Origin: Acholeplasmataceae bacterium
GTDB taxonomy: Bacteria > Bacillota_I > Bacilli_A > Acholeplasmatales > Acholeplasmataceae
Assembly (NCBI GenBank): GCA_007692425.1
Contig: RECG01000006.1
Span: forward strand, 1 to 64,000
Direction: 5' to 3'
Length of the DNA stretch: 64,000 nucleotides
Part shown: positions 2,262 to 10,404 of the stretch, one piece after another
Position numbering within the stretch: the stretch's first letter is position 1
Layout of the letters: each line of letters opens with the position of its first letter
The notes under the pieces: generated by a model
Database searches by the model: none
The model's input: the letters and a program-made list of their open reading frames with translations, nothing else
Told to the model about the DNA's origin: nothing
Program-made: the position numbers and the translations under genes

Positions 2262-3800
2262 ATGAATATAAGGAGCAGGACAATCATATCATTAACACTA
2301 ATTATCACCGTTTTAATGTTGGCGGCATGTAATAGCGCTCAAGTTGAGTTCGTGATTCAATTCAACAGTAATGGCGGATCGCACGTGAGTTCGATTGTTG
2401 CGGAAGGGGGTTCATCAATCAGTATGCCCGATGATCCATTTAAAGAAGGGTTTATATTTGCTGGTTGGTATAGGGATGTTGATCTCGAAGAAGAATTCGA
2501 TTTTGATACAATGCCAAATGAAAACCTGGTGCTATATGCAAAATGGGAAACCATCACATTTACCGTAACTTTTGATGGTGATGGCGGCATTTTGGTTGAC
2601 GGCGAAGATGTGCAAACAGTTGAAAAAGGACAAAGCGCGATTGCTCCTACCTATGAAAAAACAGGACACACATTCATGGGCTGGGATGTGTCGTTTGATA
2701 ATGTAACGGCAAATTTGGTCGTCAAGGCTCAATATCAAATCAATCAATACACGATAACTTTTGAAACCCTTGACGGGACTTCAATAGATTCAGTAACGAT
2801 TGACTATGGTAGGGGTCTATCACTTTATGTTCCTGAAAAAGAAGGATACATCTTTGGTGGATGGTACTTGGAAGATACGTTTGATACCCCGATCACAACT
2901 GTTCCAGCATTTAATGTGACACTCTATGCGAAATGGAACGAGATAGAAGATTTAATCGATCTCGTCCAAGTTGGCGAACGGGGAACAACCTACACGATAC
3001 CAACAGAGATGTTTGATTCAGGGACCGCTCAAGTCAGTGGTGGATACTTCATGGCAACCAACCAAACGACCTATGAACTATGGCATGTAGTGAGAACATG
3101 GGCAGAAGCCAATGGTTATCATTTCCAAAATAGCGGTAGGGAGGGCAGTCAAGGCGTCATCGGTTTATTACAACCCACAGCAAGAAAACACGAGCCCGTC
3201 ACAACCGTCTCATGGCGTGATGTCGTTGTATGGCTAAATGCCTTGTCTGAAATGACCGGACTCGAACCGGTTTACAGGACACCTGACGATGCCATCATCA
3301 GGGATTCAAGATATGCAAACGGCGACGTCGTTGATGCTGCGATTCAGACAAGCCACGACGGCTACAGACTCCCCACCGATATGGAATGGGAAATGGCAGC
3401 AAGATGGAAAAACGATACAACAAGCACACACGGATCTATTTTGGTGGGCGAAAGATATTGGACACCGGGCAGATATGCAAGCGGTGCAACTGGCCCGGCA
3501 TGGATTTTATCTGATGAGGAAACAGCTCATGCAGCAACCCAAGAAGTTGCATGGTACAGCGCTAACTCGGGCGGAAAAACCCAGCCGGTCGGACAATTGA
3601 TGCCGAATCATTTAGGCATCTTTGACATGAGTGGCAATGTATTTGAATGGACGTATACAACGAGCGGTTTCGGTATGGTCCTACGGGGAGGTTGCTTTGG
3701 CGAAAACACACCTCAAATGCGAGTTGGCGGTAACTGGTTCTTCACAAACACCAGCTATACTGGAAACAACCTAGGCTTCCGCATTGTGAGGAACTCTTAA
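2262..3800 (+). CDS. Lipoprotein with Flg_new repeats and a formylglycine-generating-enzyme-like domain
   Basis: 512 aa. TAGGAGG stands 10 nt before the ATG. A lipoprotein signal ends in LAAC (Cys about residue 23), so the product is probably anchored outside the membrane. Three Listeria-Bacteroides (Flg_new) repeats follow (about 28-95, 100-155, 163-226), each ending in a YAKW- or KAQYQ-type strand. From about residue 240 to the end is a sulfatase-modifying-factor/FGE fold: GYFMATNQTTYELW, VSWRDVVVWLNALS, GYRLPTDMEWEMAAR, DMSGNVFEWTYT, RGGCFGEN and NLGFRIVRN. In true formylglycine-generating enzymes the segment after RGGS holds two catalytic Cys; here those positions are Glu and Met, and the only Cys is at the Ser of RGGS. 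A binding role is therefore more likely than sulfatase activation, and no sulfatase is nearby. Confidence 0.8.
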   Translation: MNIRSRTIISLTLIITVLMLAACNSAQVEFVIQFNSNGGSHVSSIVAEGGSSISMPDDPFKEGFIFAGWYRDVDLEEEFDFDTMPNENLVLYAKWETITFTVTFDGDGGILVDGEDVQTVEKGQSAIAPTYEKTGHTFMGWDVSFDNVTANLVVKAQYQINQYTITFETLDGTSIDSVTIDYGRGLSLYVPEKEGYIFGGWYLEDTFDTPITTVPAFNVTLYAKWNEIEDLIDLVQVGERGTTYTIPTEMFDSGTAQVSGGYFMATNQTTYELWHVVRTWAEANGYHFQNSGREGSQGVIGLLQPTARKHEPVTTVSWRDVVVWLNALSEMTGLEPVYRTPDDAIIRDSRYANGDVVDAAIQTSHDGYRLPTDMEWEMAARWKNDTTSTHGSILVGERYWTPGRYASGATGPAWILSDEETAHAATQEVAWYSANSGGKTQPVGQLMPNHLGIFDMSGNVFEWTYTTSGFGMVLRGGCFGENTPQMRVGGNWFFTNTSYTGNNLGFRIVRNS

Positions 3801-4134: not shown

Positions 4135-4163
4135 TTGAGCAACCAACATAAACATGGTATAAT
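4135..4163 (+). promoter_or_regulatory. Promoter for the RCC1 lipoprotein gene
   Basis: TTGAGC (4135-4140), 17-bp spacer, TATAAT (4158-4163). An upstream in-frame ATG at 4163 overlaps the -10 box and cannot be the start. Confidence 0.6.
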
Positions 4164-4195
4164 TGAAACAAATGAAACCGATATGGAGGAAACCC

Positions 4196-6331
4196 ATGAA
4201 CAAAAAAATAACAGCGCTCATGATGATAGCGCTTTTCATGTTTTCATTATTGGGATGCGACCTTGATCCGGCAGCATCAGGACCTTTCACTATCACCTTT
4301 GACACGCAAGGTGGCGAGGAAATGGATTCAGAAGAGGTCGAGGGAATAACCAGTTTCAACCTTCCTCAGACCGTAAAGGAGGGACACACTTTTTTGGGCT
4401 GGGTCGTTAAAGGAGACCTTACCGAGAGATTGCGGAAGAACGTGGTTCGTATCGATTCAGATACCACCCTTGTCGCGCAGTGGCGTGTCAATCAGTACAC
4501 GGTCACCTTTGAGACCGACGGCGGGGAGCCTATCGGACCCTTATCCTTGGACTATGGTTCAGATCTTGGTCTCCATGTTCCTATCAAAGAGGGGTATGTA
4601 TTCACGGGGTGGCATCTTGACGAACAGTTGACCTTCACCATTGAAACCGTATCTGCCGAGGATATAGTTATCCATGCGGGGTGGGCACTTGAGACCTATG
4701 CAATCACATACAATATTGATGGGGGAGCAAACCATCCCGATAACCAATCGTCCTACACGATTGAAACAGACACATTATTCTTTGAAGCCCCCACCAAAGA
4801 AGGCCACACCTTCATGGGTTGGTATGACAATGAAGTGTTCACAGGTCCGGAAATGACTTCCTTAGGCCAAGGGTCTATTGGTGATGTCGAGTTGTTTGCC
4901 AAATGGGAAGTCAACCAATATCATATCCAGTACTTTATTTTTGATGAGGTTGATTCGGATGTAATCATCCCGCTTATGCCGGGCGAAACAATCGTTCAGA
5001 GCCTTATGGGGGGCTATCATTCTTCAGCCCTGACATCGGAAGGACGACTCTTTATGTGGGGTTACAATTATTATGGTCAACTTGGCGACAGCACGACGAC
5101 AAGCAGAAATACCCCAACCGAGATTACCAGTCACTTTGATTTAGCCGGAAGCGAAACAATCACGCAGGTGACATTAGGAACCTATCATTCCTCCGCTCTG
5201 ACATCAGAGGGGCGACTCTTCATGTGGGGCAACAACGAATATGGTCAACTTGGCGACGGCACGACAATATGGAGAAACGCCCCAACAGAAATTAACAATC
5301 ATTTTTTGTTGTTGCTAGACGAAACGGTTATTCAGGTATCCTTGGGGTTTGCTCATTCCTCGGCTCTGACATCAGAAGGACGCTTATTTATGTGGGGATA
5401 TAATGCAGTGGGTGAGCTTGGTGACGGAACGATTATGAGCAGACACACCCCAGTTGAAATTAGCGACCAATTTAACCTTAATGAAGGAGAAAATATCTTT
5501 CAAGTGTCACTGGCATACCTTAGGTCCTCAGCCTTGACTTCGGAAGGGCGACTCTTCATGTGGGGGATAAATAGTTATGGCCAACTTGGTGATGGAACCA
5601 CGATAAACCGCAGCACGCCAACAGATATTACAGATAGTTTTGAAATATCAACGGATGATATGATTGTTCTGGTGTCCTTGGGGGGGTATCATTCTTCAGC
5701 CCTAACATCAAAAGGAAACCTTTTCGTGTGGGGTTGGAACGCGCATGGCCAACTGGGTGACGGCACGAACACGAACAGAACCACTCCAACTGAGATTACA
5801 AGCCATTTTGACTTGTCGAACGACGATACACTGATTCAGGTTACCTTGGGACAGGTGTACTCATCGGCCCTAACCTCAAAGGGGCGGCTCCTCATGTGGG
5901 GGAATAACGGTGTTGGTCAACTTGGTGATGGAACCACGATGAATCGTAGCACACCAACCGATATAACCGGTGTTCTTGCATTGCCAACGGACGAAACAAC
6001 CACCCATGTGTCCTTTGGAGAATCTCACTCTTCAGCCCTAACATCAAAAGGGCGACTCTTCGTGTGGGGAGGAAATAGTTTTGGCCAATTAGGCGATGGC
6101 ACGACAACACAGAGAGAGACTCCATTTAACCTGTTCTACAGCCCTTTTGAAATCATCCACGAAACAACCTATGATTTCAATGACACCATTATCCCGTTTA
6201 TGCCCGCAAGAGATGGATATGATTTCAGCGGATGGCATGTAGATTGCGAATTGACAACCCCGTTTGATACAACCGTCATGCCTGCGGAAAACATCATCCT
6301 ATATGGGACATGGATTCCAAATGGAGATTAA
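4196..6331 (+). CDS. RCC1-repeat lipoprotein with flanking Flg_new repeats
   Basis: 711 aa from ATG 4196, which has GGAGGAA just upstream. The signal MNKKITALMMIALFMFSLLGC ends in an LLGC lipobox. About residues 30-255 hold three Flg_new repeats (FDTQGGEEM, FETDGGEPI, YNIDGGANH). About 270-640 hold seven copies of an RCC1-type repeat, each near 'HSSALTSEGRLFMWG-N-YGQLGDGT---R-TPTEI', separated by about 52 residues; seven matches one closed RCC1 propeller. A last Flg_new-like unit (about 650-705, YDFSGWHVD...LYGTW) closes the chain. RCC1 propellers bind proteins or other ligands, and the ligand here is unknown. The gene follows the third tRNA-like fragment. The repeats are alike at DNA level, so copy-number change by recombination is possible. 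Confidence 0.85.
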   Translation: MNKKITALMMIALFMFSLLGCDLDPAASGPFTITFDTQGGEEMDSEEVEGITSFNLPQTVKEGHTFLGWVVKGDLTERLRKNVVRIDSDTTLVAQWRVNQYTVTFETDGGEPIGPLSLDYGSDLGLHVPIKEGYVFTGWHLDEQLTFTIETVSAEDIVIHAGWALETYAITYNIDGGANHPDNQSSYTIETDTLFFEAPTKEGHTFMGWYDNEVFTGPEMTSLGQGSIGDVELFAKWEVNQYHIQYFIFDEVDSDVIIPLMPGETIVQSLMGGYHSSALTSEGRLFMWGYNYYGQLGDSTTTSRNTPTEITSHFDLAGSETITQVTLGTYHSSALTSEGRLFMWGNNEYGQLGDGTTIWRNAPTEINNHFLLLLDETVIQVSLGFAHSSALTSEGRLFMWGYNAVGELGDGTIMSRHTPVEISDQFNLNEGENIFQVSLAYLRSSALTSEGRLFMWGINSYGQLGDGTTINRSTPTDITDSFEISTDDMIVLVSLGGYHSSALTSKGNLFVWGWNAHGQLGDGTNTNRTTPTEITSHFDLSNDDTLIQVTLGQVYSSALTSKGRLLMWGNNGVGQLGDGTTMNRSTPTDITGVLALPTDETTTHVSFGESHSSALTSKGRLFVWGGNSFGQLGDGTTTQRETPFNLFYSPFEIIHETTYDFNDTIIPFMPARDGYDFSGWHVDCELTTPFDTTVMPAENIILYGTWIPNGD

Positions 6332-6715: not shown

Positions 6716-6761
6716 TAAAATATGAAACATTTGAACATCAAATTATTTGAAGGAGAAAACA

Positions 6762-7613
6762 ATGAGCGAAAAAATTGGAATTGTTGTATGTGGGAACTCA
6801 GGCGTTGACTACATGAAGCTTGATTATCCGGTCAAAATGATCAGATCAATCCTGAATCTTGGTGGTAAAGAGTATGAGGATTATGTCGATATTCAGGCCA
6901 AAGAGTTTTATGACATGATCCAGTCCAACCCGGATATTGATGTGTCCACATCACAAACCGCCACCGGCAAGATTGCCAGCGTCTACGAAGAATTGAAAGA
7001 AGAGGGGTACACAGATGTCATCGCCATCGTCATCTCCTCTAAACTCAGCGGTACTTATCAAGGTGCGGTTCTGGCCAAGGATATGGTCAGTGACCTCAAT
7101 GTCTACGTGATTGACTCAAGAAGCGTCTCTTATGGAGAGGCCTACCTGGTTTTGGAAGCCATCAAGATGATCAAGGCCGGCAGCAAATCCAGAGAAATCA
7201 TCGACAGCCTCGAAAAGATCAGAGACAACATCTATATTTACGTGCTAGTCGACACCTTGAAATACCTGGTCAAGAACGGTAGATTGTCCGGCGCACAAGG
7301 CTTTTTGGGGACGCTATTGAAAGTCAAACCGCTGCTTCATGTCCAAAGAGACGGAACATTGGTGCCTTTTGAAAAGATCAGAACAACAAGTAAAGCACAA
7401 GCCCGTTTGTTAGAAGTCGTCAAGAGCGACATCGAAGGCAAAAACGTCACCATGTTCATCGCGTACACGAACAACGAAGACAAGGCCATTGAAATCAAGA
7501 ACAAGCTCATCGAATTCAGACCTGGGTTGACTGTGGAAGTCGTGCCCTTGACACCTGTCGTCGGTGCGCATGCCGGCCCTGGCACACTGGGAGTAGGTTA
7601 TATTGTTCTTTAA
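6762..7613 (+). CDS. DegV family fatty-acid-binding protein
   Basis: 283 aa from ATG 6762, preceded by GAAGGAG. The N-terminal part (GIVVCGNSGVD..., STSQTATGKIASVYEEL, VIAIVISSKLSGTYQGA) and the ending TPVVGAHAGPGTLGVGYI are DegV/FakB signatures; the family binds a long-chain fatty acid in a cleft and, in FakA-FakB systems, presents it to a kinase so that exogenous fatty acid enters phospholipid. The N-terminal segment is somewhat unusual (VCGNSGVDY rather than VTDSTADL), while the TSQ motif and the C-terminal GPG motif are kept. No FakA is in view. The MarR gene 27 nt downstream is probably cotranscribed. Confidence 0.85.
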   Translation: MSEKIGIVVCGNSGVDYMKLDYPVKMIRSILNLGGKEYEDYVDIQAKEFYDMIQSNPDIDVSTSQTATGKIASVYEELKEEGYTDVIAIVISSKLSGTYQGAVLAKDMVSDLNVYVIDSRSVSYGEAYLVLEAIKMIKAGSKSREIIDSLEKIRDNIYIYVLVDTLKYLVKNGRLSGAQGFLGTLLKVKPLLHVQRDGTLVPFEKIRTTSKAQARLLEVVKSDIEGKNVTMFIAYTNNEDKAIEIKNKLIEFRPGLTVEVVPLTPVVGAHAGPGTLGVGYIVL

Positions 7614-7640: not shown

Positions 7641-8078
7641 ATGGGTTCACCCAAAGAGGTCATCAACGAATTGTTGGTTGATGTGTTCAATCATATTTTG
7701 AGCATCGAAAATGATGTGCTGAAAAAGCGCGGCGTCAAGCTTTCGATGACCGAAGTTCATGTCTTGGAGGCCATCCGAAACACCGAGGTGCCCAACATGG
7801 GTAACGTGGCCCAGAAACTAAGGGTGACGCTAGGGACATTGACCACATCAATCAACGTGTTGGTCAAAAAGAGTTACGTGGTCAGATATCGAGACGAGAA
7901 AGATAGACGAAGGGTCTATCTGAAACTGCTCGATAGCGCACACCAGGTCTTGAAAATCCACGATGAATTCCACGATGAGATGATTGACTCGATTTTCAAA
8001 GATCTTGACTTGGAAAAAGATGAAATTCTAATGAAATCACTACAAAACATAAGCAATTACTTCAAACAACAGTATTAA
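7641..8078 (+). CDS. MarR family transcription regulator
   Basis: 145 aa. A winged-helix core with LSMTEVHVLEAI, VAQKLRVTLGTLTTSINVLVKKSYV (recognition region) and the wing RYRDEKDRRRVYLKL is a standard MarR fold, which binds DNA as a dimer. GAAAGGGG lies about 12 nt upstream of the ATG. In Firmicutes a MarR protein (FabT) represses fatty-acid synthesis and responds to acyl chains; pairing with a DegV lipid-binding protein makes a lipid-sensing role attractive, but that is inference. The gene ends at a clear terminator. Confidence 0.85.
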   Translation: MGSPKEVINELLVDVFNHILSIENDVLKKRGVKLSMTEVHVLEAIRNTEVPNMGNVAQKLRVTLGTLTTSINVLVKKSYVVRYRDEKDRRRVYLKLLDSAHQVLKIHDEFHDEMIDSIFKDLDLEKDEILMKSLQNISNYFKQQY

Positions 8079-8084
8079 TAAACG

Positions 8085-8111
8085 AACTCCGGCTTTGTCG
8101 GAGTTTTTTTT
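8085..8111 (+). terminator. Intrinsic terminator of the degV-marR unit
   Basis: AACTCCG (8085-8091), 7-nt loop, CGGAGTT (8099-8105), continued T-run. Confidence 0.85.
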
Positions 8112-8156
8112 GTAAAAAACGAGAAAAATAGCGGGGCAGATCGACGTATTTTGGTT

Positions 8157-8382
8157 TATAATGGAAACGAGTGAAAAGCCACATGTTTCGGGGGGGGGAT
8201 TTGAAATGGGCCGGGTTATTCGGTCATGCCATGTTGAACAAGAAGATCGAAAGGGTCTTTTTTTGTTGATGAATCAAAGGTTTCGATAGCACGACAGGTT
8301 GATAGTCCCCACGGTGTATTCGCTCGCACGTCAAGGCAATCTAAAGGATTCATCAATACAACAAAACAAATGGAGAATGGAA
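8157..8382 (+). promoter_or_regulatory. Leader with -10 box, G9 tract, short ORF and terminator-like hairpin
   Basis: TATAAT (8157-8162) has no good -35. A run of nine G (8190-8198) follows, then a possible 27-codon ORF (8206-8289) using the G-run as its ribosome site. Inside it, AAGATC, a GAAAG loop and GGTCTT (about 8243-8259) run into T7 (8258-8264), a weak intrinsic terminator. The main gene starts at 8383. Homopolymeric tracts in this position are known to vary in length in other bacteria; here that and attenuation are both inference. Confidence 0.45.
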
Positions 8383-10173
8383 ATGTCAAGCAAAACCCGC
8401 AAACACACCCCATGTTCCAAAGTGATCAACAAAGGCATCGCTTATGGATCGGTCGTCAATTTTGATGTCAAAACACCTGCCAAACCAATGAACGTGAAAC
8501 AAACCAACCAGTTTATCAAACAAATCAAACACATCATTGAAGATGATGTCAGACACCACCAAAACACCCACCATCGCGTGTCTCAACTCTTAACTGCTCA
8601 AACCGGCAACTTACATGCCGTTTGGATGATTGCACACAGCAAACACTTTTATACGACACTATCCGACAACTTACACCTGCACGGCATGACGCCGGTTGAA
8701 GCCTTTGATTGTGCTTTCGATGAGGTCACTGACCAATGGGATCCGCTATTCCCAATGAACGATCCCGAATGGCAGGCACACATCAGGACGACATGTCGCG
8801 CCTTTCGAAACCGCATCGGCAGGCACGTTGAAAGATATATGCTAAAACAAGCGCTTCAACACAAAAAAGCGCCGGTCGTGCTTGTGGTCAACCAATTCAA
8901 GGTTGAACATCTTTACGATCTTAAACATGTTGTCAAAGGGATTCTCGCCAAAAGAGAAGGAAACGATTCTTTTCTAGACTTTACCGTATTGAAAGCATAT
9001 GAACTGCCGATGATGGTGTGCGAACACGATCACGAAGAAGGGGTATCGATGATCATGGATGCCGATCAGGGCATTGTCATCAGCAACCCCACGACACAGG
9101 ACAAAAAGGTCTATACCGCCCGTCTTACGGAAACCCATCTTGCCGAAAATCCCACATATGACCGCGAACAACGCCAATTGAAAGTATATGCACCGATTGT
9201 TGATCAACGCCATCTCATGGCAATATCGACAAGCCCCAAGTATGATGGCGTCGCCCCATATGCTTCAGAGTTCAACTATGTCACCAAGGGGATGACGCCA
9301 TCCGTGAAGGAGCTCACACAAACGTATACAGACATGGTCAAGGCCATGAAGGGCAAAACATGCATCATCCGTATTCCTGATTTCAGACCTGATAAGCCGA
9401 CACCTTATCTGGGCTCCGGCCTATACACGGACATCCAGTCGTTTTGTGAGCATGTTGATCTATATAATGATTTCCTGACGGCGGTCGCCAACGCCTCCAG
9501 GCATGGCCAGGTCAAAATCGTCGTGCCGATGATCAGGCAACACGAAGAAGTCGGTTTTTGGCGATCCATGGTCCAAGGGGCGTTTGAGTGTGCCGGTGTT
9601 GCCGCACCCCCGCTGGGCATCATGATGGAAACCGAATCAGCCATTCAGTATCACGAAGACTATGAAGATGTTGACTTTGTCATCATTGGATTGGATGATT
9701 TCATAGAAGAGGTTGATGACGATTACAACCGTTATGACGTCGTTCCGAAACAGGTGTTTTTCACGCGATATGGCAGAGACATCAGAGATTTGCATCAACA
9801 TTTGCGTCTCAGAAACATCGAACATTATATACAAGGTAATATCTTAAGCCAACCGGAAATTCTAGACCGTATTTTGAAAATGGGTTTTCGGCATATTTGC
9901 ATACCAGCCGGCAAGATGAAAACAGTTGAGCCCGTCATTCAACAATTCGTCGAAAACAAAGGCAGATATGTCGGTGTGGCCGCACAAAGACTGGAACGAA
10001 AACAAGAAGCAGAAGAGACGAAAGACATGAGCCACCAACCGTTGAAACAGGACCTTCTGAACAAGCTGGAAAAACACAAGCAAAACCGGTCTTCACACCA
10101 TGCAATCCGAGAGACACACAAAGCAAGACAACATAAAATAACGAAAAACGCATCAAAAAGAACACCGGATTAA
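8383..10173 (+). CDS. Catalytically degenerate PTS enzyme I paralogue
   Basis: 596 aa from ATG 8383 (TGGAGAA upstream). It aligns along its length with PTS enzyme I: an N-terminal KGIAYGS segment, a swivelling domain with PVVLVVNQFK...DADQGIVISNPT, and a PEP-binding TIM barrel with ASEFNYV, IIRIPDF, VKIVVPMI, GIMMETESA and VIIGLDDF. Enzyme I moves phosphate from PEP to a His and on to HPr. Here the His of GGxTSHxAIMAR is Leu198 (codon 8974), the Arg of RTEF is Ala294 (codon 9262), and the catalytic Cys of MCGEMAGDP is Gln484 (codon 9832). The Glu of the GIMVE motif and the Asp of the GTND motif are kept. A basic tail of about 70 residues follows. Phosphotransfer seems impossible, so a regulatory or PEP-sensing role is likely. 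No HPr or EII genes are nearby. Confidence 0.75.
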   Translation: MSSKTRKHTPCSKVINKGIAYGSVVNFDVKTPAKPMNVKQTNQFIKQIKHIIEDDVRHHQNTHHRVSQLLTAQTGNLHAVWMIAHSKHFYTTLSDNLHLHGMTPVEAFDCAFDEVTDQWDPLFPMNDPEWQAHIRTTCRAFRNRIGRHVERYMLKQALQHKKAPVVLVVNQFKVEHLYDLKHVVKGILAKREGNDSFLDFTVLKAYELPMMVCEHDHEEGVSMIMDADQGIVISNPTTQDKKVYTARLTETHLAENPTYDREQRQLKVYAPIVDQRHLMAISTSPKYDGVAPYASEFNYVTKGMTPSVKELTQTYTDMVKAMKGKTCIIRIPDFRPDKPTPYLGSGLYTDIQSFCEHVDLYNDFLTAVANASRHGQVKIVVPMIRQHEEVGFWRSMVQGAFECAGVAAPPLGIMMETESAIQYHEDYEDVDFVIIGLDDFIEEVDDDYNRYDVVPKQVFFTRYGRDIRDLHQHLRLRNIEHYIQGNILSQPEILDRILKMGFRHICIPAGKMKTVEPVIQQFVENKGRYVGVAAQRLERKQEAEETKDMSHQPLKQDLLNKLEKHKQNRSSHHAIRETHKARQHKITKNASKRTPD

Positions 10174-10246: not shown

Positions 10247-10275
10247 TTGCAATGCCAACGCTTTTTTTGTATAAT
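10247..10275 (+). promoter_or_regulatory. Promoter of the ribosomal protein operon
   Basis: TTGCAA (10247-10252), 17-bp spacer, TATAAT (10270-10275), about 130 bases before rpsJ. Confidence 0.75.
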
Positions 10276-10306
10276 TAATAACGCTCGTGTATGAGCAGGC
10301 TGTGAA

Positions 10307-10360
10307 ATGGGAGGTTGCTGACACACGGATAGCCGTTGTCTACGTGTCAGGTTTTCCCAT
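10307..10360 (+). promoter_or_regulatory. rpsJ leader hairpin, probable autogenous control site
   Basis: Nested pairing: ATGGGA/TCCCAT (10307-10312, 10355-10360), CTGACAC/GTGTCAG (10318-10324, 10344-10350) and ACGG/CCGT (10325-10328, 10333-10336, tetraloop ATAG). S10-type operons are often repressed by one of their own products on the leader, so this stem is the natural target. I cannot name the binding protein. Confidence 0.55.
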
Positions 10361-10404
10361 CGAGCAAGTCTATACCCGATTATAGGCGAAAGGAGCTATG
10401 AATA

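Follow-up and report, generated by a model that had tools for sequence, protein, structure and literature searches.

The gene located upstream of the S10 ribosomal operon in an Acholeplasmataceae bacterium encodes an enzyme I-like protein (EIL) which, as judged from its sequence, is a catalytically dead enzyme I (EI). The bacterial PTS, a system of sugar uptake, is entered through enzyme I, and the protein described here has probably been kept at the S10 locus, as a member of an old EIL lineage, in the role of a binding or scaffold pseudoenzyme that works independently of the PTS. The window analyzed is a stretch of 64,000 nucleotides of contig RECG01000006.1, and the features of the EIL locus within it are the following.

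6747..7613, + strand: DegV-family (FakB-like) gene, a conserved neighbour
7641..8078, + strand: gene of a MarR-family (FabT-like) regulator, a conserved neighbour
8084..8106, + strand: terminator-like hairpin closing the upstream DegV-MarR unit
8383..10173, + strand: putative EI-like pseudoenzyme (EIL) of 596 aa, defined by ORF, Pfam/EI profiles, alignment and AlphaFold model
8494..8856, + strand: region in the position of the HPr-binding helical domain of EI, aa 38-158, helices in the model
8863..9087, + strand: phosphohistidine-domain-like region, aa 161-235, with the Leu198 codon at 8974-8976, from the alignment
9169..9954, + strand: PEP-binding TIM barrel, aa 263-524, from PF02896 match, alignment and fold match
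9262-9264, 9628-9630, 9697-9699 and 9832-9834, + strand: barrel codons for Ala294, Glu416, Asp439 and Gln484, respectively
9955..10170, + strand: C-terminal extension, aa 525-596, with KGRYVGV (aa 526-532), a long helix and IRETHKARQ
10294..10389, + strand: S10-Clostridia ribosomal leader RF03136
10405..10713, + strand: rpsJ (S10), the first gene of the ribosomal operon

The EIL reading frame has been assigned to start at the ATG at 8383, which has GGAG at 8372-8375; translation might also begin at a TTG further upstream (8299), although the ATG is the start favoured by the alignment. The sole Pfam match is the C-terminal barrel (PF02896, 63 bits, aa 254-516), and the score against the EI equivalog TIGR01417 (91.7 bits) falls far below the cutoff of 341.7. 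In the AlphaFold model, built from 11 homologues (pLDDT 83, pTM 0.78), all EI domains are nevertheless recognisable. The best PDB matches of the model are full-length enzyme I structures with the phosphorylated E. coli EI (2hwg) at the top (E 1.6e-24, 571 columns), and the enzyme I architecture noticed in the first-pass annotation is confirmed. Citrate-lyase-type barrels match the fold more weakly, with E values from about 1e-6 to 1e-5. Neither a GAF domain at the N-terminus (by Pfam; the model opens with the EI N-terminal strands) nor an ATP-grasp nucleotide-binding domain (by Pfam and the model) has been detected. The same genome encodes a canonical PtsI (contig C7) and PPDK (contig C29), so that EIL is the third protein of the superfamily there. 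The assignment of EIL as a relative of PPDK or PEP synthase has been rejected because EI is favoured in both fold and sequence and a PPDK is encoded separately in the genome.

The active site has been compared in an alignment of 66 proteins, including 21 canonical PtsI from the same order, all of which keep nine out of nine catalytic residues. In the EIL of the window the equivalent of phospho-His189 is Leu198 (motif SFLDF), that of Arg296 is Ala294, that of Asn454 is Asp438, that of the catalytic Cys502 is Gln484 (motif YIQGN), and the Arg358 loop is deleted. The losses of His, Arg and Cys read at first from the sequence alone thus concern the same residues as those aligned to PtsI. Four positions of the PEP/Mg site are kept: Arg332 as Arg330, Glu431 as Glu416, the Mg-site Asp455 as Asp439 and Arg465 as Arg450 within NRYD; the retention of the Glu and the Asp had been correctly recognized before, and the conservation of these ligands, present in the window protein, is not family-wide. 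A shifted active site has been considered and rejected, since neither a His nor a Cys aligns close to the expected positions, the nearest His residues being 182 and 215.

EIL is not an oddity of a single genome and forms a clade separate from canonical EI. The EIL proteins of Acholeplasmataceae, the family of the window species (f1), and of two sister families (f3 and f5) are set apart from all EIs of the class by a branch with the support of 100/100, in a tree other than the one in which the window protein itself was placed; the clade is defined by this unrooted split together with gene order, the root of the tree not being fixed. The named members of f1 are Acholeplasmataceae, with the cultured Peloplasma aerotolerans among them. 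The conserved gene order comprises DegV, the MarR-type regulator, usually a ROK glucokinase-like gene, EIL and the rpsJ/S10 operon, and it has been found in f1, f5 and one f3 genome; most f3 EIL genes sit elsewhere in the genome, away from the rpsJ locus. In f1 rpsJ lies downstream of EIL in all genomes in which EIL was found with its flank, some of the genomes of relatives being incomplete. The ROK and EIL reading frames overlap, often by 4-17 nt, in the majority of f5 genomes and in some of those of f1. The window species lacks the ROK gene that many relatives have at this place (8079-8382), and no clear glucokinase-type ROK has been found elsewhere in its genome; likewise, glucokinase has been reported as absent from P. 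aerotolerans (PMC11122141). The presence of a remnant of glucokinase in the MarR-EIL interval was rejected, as no convincing tblastn match was obtained. Further upstream, a protein of approximately 225 aa (cluster 24; L035, L037, L039) is conserved ahead of DegV in many relatives. In the window, positions 4163-6331 encode a lipoprotein-like protein that carries List-Bact repeats and an array of RCC1-type repeats, and in the product of positions 2262-3800 an FGE-sulfatase (formylglycine-generating-like) domain is joined to List-Bact repeats.

The position next to the S10 operon is in itself weak evidence of function, since rpsJ is preceded by a leader of its own and by a promoter-like site at 10247-10275; for the same reason shared expression with the S10 operon has been rejected as the basis for EIL. 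The leader of EIL (8165-8385) folds no better than its shuffled versions (z = +0.55) and has no match in Rfam, which speaks against the switch proposed for it.

The two branches of the clade differ in the state of the catalytic residues. The EILs of f3 and f5 (about 500 aa) keep eight out of nine of them, namely His189, Arg296, Arg332, Glu431, Asn454, Asp455, Arg465 and Cys502, and miss Arg358, with the one exception of G040. Canonical PtsI has not been found in f3 and most f5 genomes, which have EIL and one to three HPr proteins instead; the PF02378 glucose-type permease domain and PF03610 EIIA-man are mostly not found in these families. With PF03610 effectively absent, the idea that the relatives are linked to the Dha or mannose PTS was rejected. 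As the sole EI beside HPr in most of these genomes, with the residues retained, EIL is likely to be the working EI of f3 and f5 in a PTS without identified permeases, and this pair of short EI lacking the Arg358 loop and HPr (L052-L069) possibly represents a regulatory PTS. In f1, where most genomes carry a canonical PtsI as well as HPr, both His and Cys have been lost in every EIL with readable positions. The origin of a non-catalytic protein from a PTS enzyme, suggested in the first-pass annotation, is thereby strongly supported: the dead clade is Acholeplasmataceae-wide and the sister-family orthologues keep the catalytic residues. In the f5 genome G040, where HPr was not found, the EIL (L083) is without His, Arg332, Arg465 and Cys, and its sequence indicates that catalytic residues were lost a second time, independently. 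Among the canonical proteins, PtsI of the f5 genome G043 (L114) groups tightly with the second PtsI copy of the f1 genome G027 (L111), which suggests horizontal transfer of PtsI between f5 and f1.

The dead EILs are under purifying selection. In the closest pair dN/dS is 0.072, next to 0.077 for DegV and 0.070 for ROK of the same genomes; most other scorable pairs give 0.09-0.18 and the most distant scorable f1 pair 0.27, with dS near saturation. These values, far below 1, do not follow the pattern of a pseudogene. EIL evolves faster than the neighbouring genes, the gene has been lost in f1 genera g2, g6, g7, g8 and g12, and the frame is interrupted by a stop in G019 (L042) and G046 (L060), reflecting either ongoing gene loss or sequencing error. 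Fast evolution, losses and interrupted copies would all be expected of a decaying pseudogene, but with such dN/dS and long frames open in more than 20 divergent genomes this explanation is extremely improbable; the losses and interruptions show that EIL is dispensable in some lineages.

The present role of EIL is independent of the PTS. In the three genomes of genus g4 (G005, G018 and G029; 99, 99 and 93% complete) an EIL of 359-393 aa is encoded directly upstream of rpsJ, and neither HPr nor any PF02896 match has been found in them, so whatever function maintains the gene in g4 cannot depend on PtsI or HPr. The EILs of this genus, short and very divergent, may have a role different from that of other EILs. 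The same genomes bear on the possibility that EIL modulates the canonical PTS, by pairing with PtsI through the dimer domain or by acting as an HPr decoy. EI acts as a dimer formed via its barrel domain, the EI fold is retained in EIL and most f1 genomes carry PtsI and HPr, all of which would suit such a modulator; its persistence in g4 without either partner, together with the poor conservation of the HPr-docking helical region, the least conserved domain of the f1 core (mean pairwise identity 0.18 versus 0.36-0.41 in the barrel), makes this role quite unlikely.

The barrel of the f1 core has acquired new near-fixed residues, among them Pro332, Phe334, Trp393, His471 and Glu418. With Glu416 kept, His471, Trp393 and Glu418 newly fixed and citrate-lyase-type barrels among the weaker fold matches, a new enzyme could be envisaged in which the pyruvate/PEP barrel carries a new lyase- or aldolase-like site, yet roughly half of the degenerate EILs with the same synteny lack most of these new residues and lyase matches are expected for the superfamily, so we regard it as very unlikely.

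The C-terminal tail had been described as a basic extension of 70 residues. It is basic in the window species (18 K/R and 9 D/E), but this is not general, since elsewhere in f1 the tail is shorter, mixed in charge (g3), or nearly absent to absent; long tails of some species share an IRDxHKxKRE-like segment. More widespread is a short motif following the barrel, [RK]G[KR][YF], found in 21 out of 27 f1 EILs and in none of the 37 catalytic forms when I at position 1 and N, S or T at position 3 are also accepted; six f1 proteins miss it. In the degenerate EIL group it falls in the best conserved region. Since the motif was spotted by inspecting the same alignment, it should be treated as a lead and not as an independent test. 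The proposal of RNA or DNA binding relies on this tail of varying length and charge, in which wide conservation is limited to the short segment.

These observations, taken with the state of the PEP site, bear on the view of EIL as a PEP-responsive regulator in which the barrel would bind PEP or an analogue and the basic tail would signal to nucleic acid. The retained equivalents of Glu431, Asp455, Arg332 and Arg465, the basic tail of the window protein and a gene order tying EIL to glucokinase and ribosomal genes could be read in this way, but Asp455 is Asn in many members of the f1 core and little of the site is left in the EILs of g4, g11, g14 and G036, while the window protein itself is without Arg296, Asn454 and the Arg358 loop, the tail is variable and the leader shows no structure. 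We therefore consider such a regulator unlikely. As a family-wide role, PEP responsiveness finds no support, the Mg Asp being often Asn and the other PEP ligands decaying in several genera; for the window species a PEP sensor is possible. A related proposal, to which we give very little chance, is a metabolite-gated regulator that binds RNA or the ribosome, whose barrel would sense PEP or a related oxoacid and whose [RK]G[KR][YF] arm would act on translation or on the expression of the S10 operon; if true, sugar status would be coupled to ribosome synthesis without any PTS.

The pseudoenzyme with a binding or scaffold role, which we favour, might have arisen as follows. The EIL of Acholeplasmataceae belongs to an old lineage of EI that became fixed ahead of the S10 operon, and the ancestral EIL would already have had an additional, non-catalytic role. 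With canonical PtsI present, or the PTS lost, phosphotransfer would no longer have been selected and EIL would have been kept for the other role. In the better conserved EILs the remodelled barrel may hold a ligand or a protein, and the C-terminal basic segment with the [RK]G[KR][YF] motif may make a new contact with nucleic acid, the ribosome, a membrane or a protein.

Searches of the open-access literature have yielded no inactive enzyme I, in agreement with the earlier statement that no system of this form has been described. Among the known proteins, PTS enzyme I (PtsI; TIGR01417, PF02896) shares with EIL the whole fold, the domain order and part of the PEP site, whereas EIL is without the phospho-His, the catalytic Cys, Arg296 and the Arg358 loop, scores far under the family cutoff and has, in the window species, an added C-terminal extension. 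EINtr (PtsP) is active and has a GAF domain, while the EIL of the window is predicted to be inactive and has none. Regulatory PTS without sugar permeases are known, e.g. in Brucella (PMC2937029), and such a PTS branch without transport resembles the state of f3 and f5, with EIL and HPr present and EIIC and EIIA-man mostly not found. PPDK and PEP synthase represent the same phosphohistidine-plus-barrel fold class, with a fold match in the barrel, but EIL is without their nucleotide-binding domain and has EI as its best match in both sequence and fold. A general parallel is offered by pseudoenzymes, inactive paralogues kept as scaffolds or regulators, which like EIL have lost catalytic residues under purifying selection. 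Direct comparison can separate the two roles, as catalytic orthologues are retained at this locus in the sister families, and the close relative P. aerotolerans is in culture (PMC11122141), so the EIL protein is open to testing there. A clade-wide inactive EI that outlives the PTS implies that a second function, not a catalytic one, can reside in proteins of the EI type.
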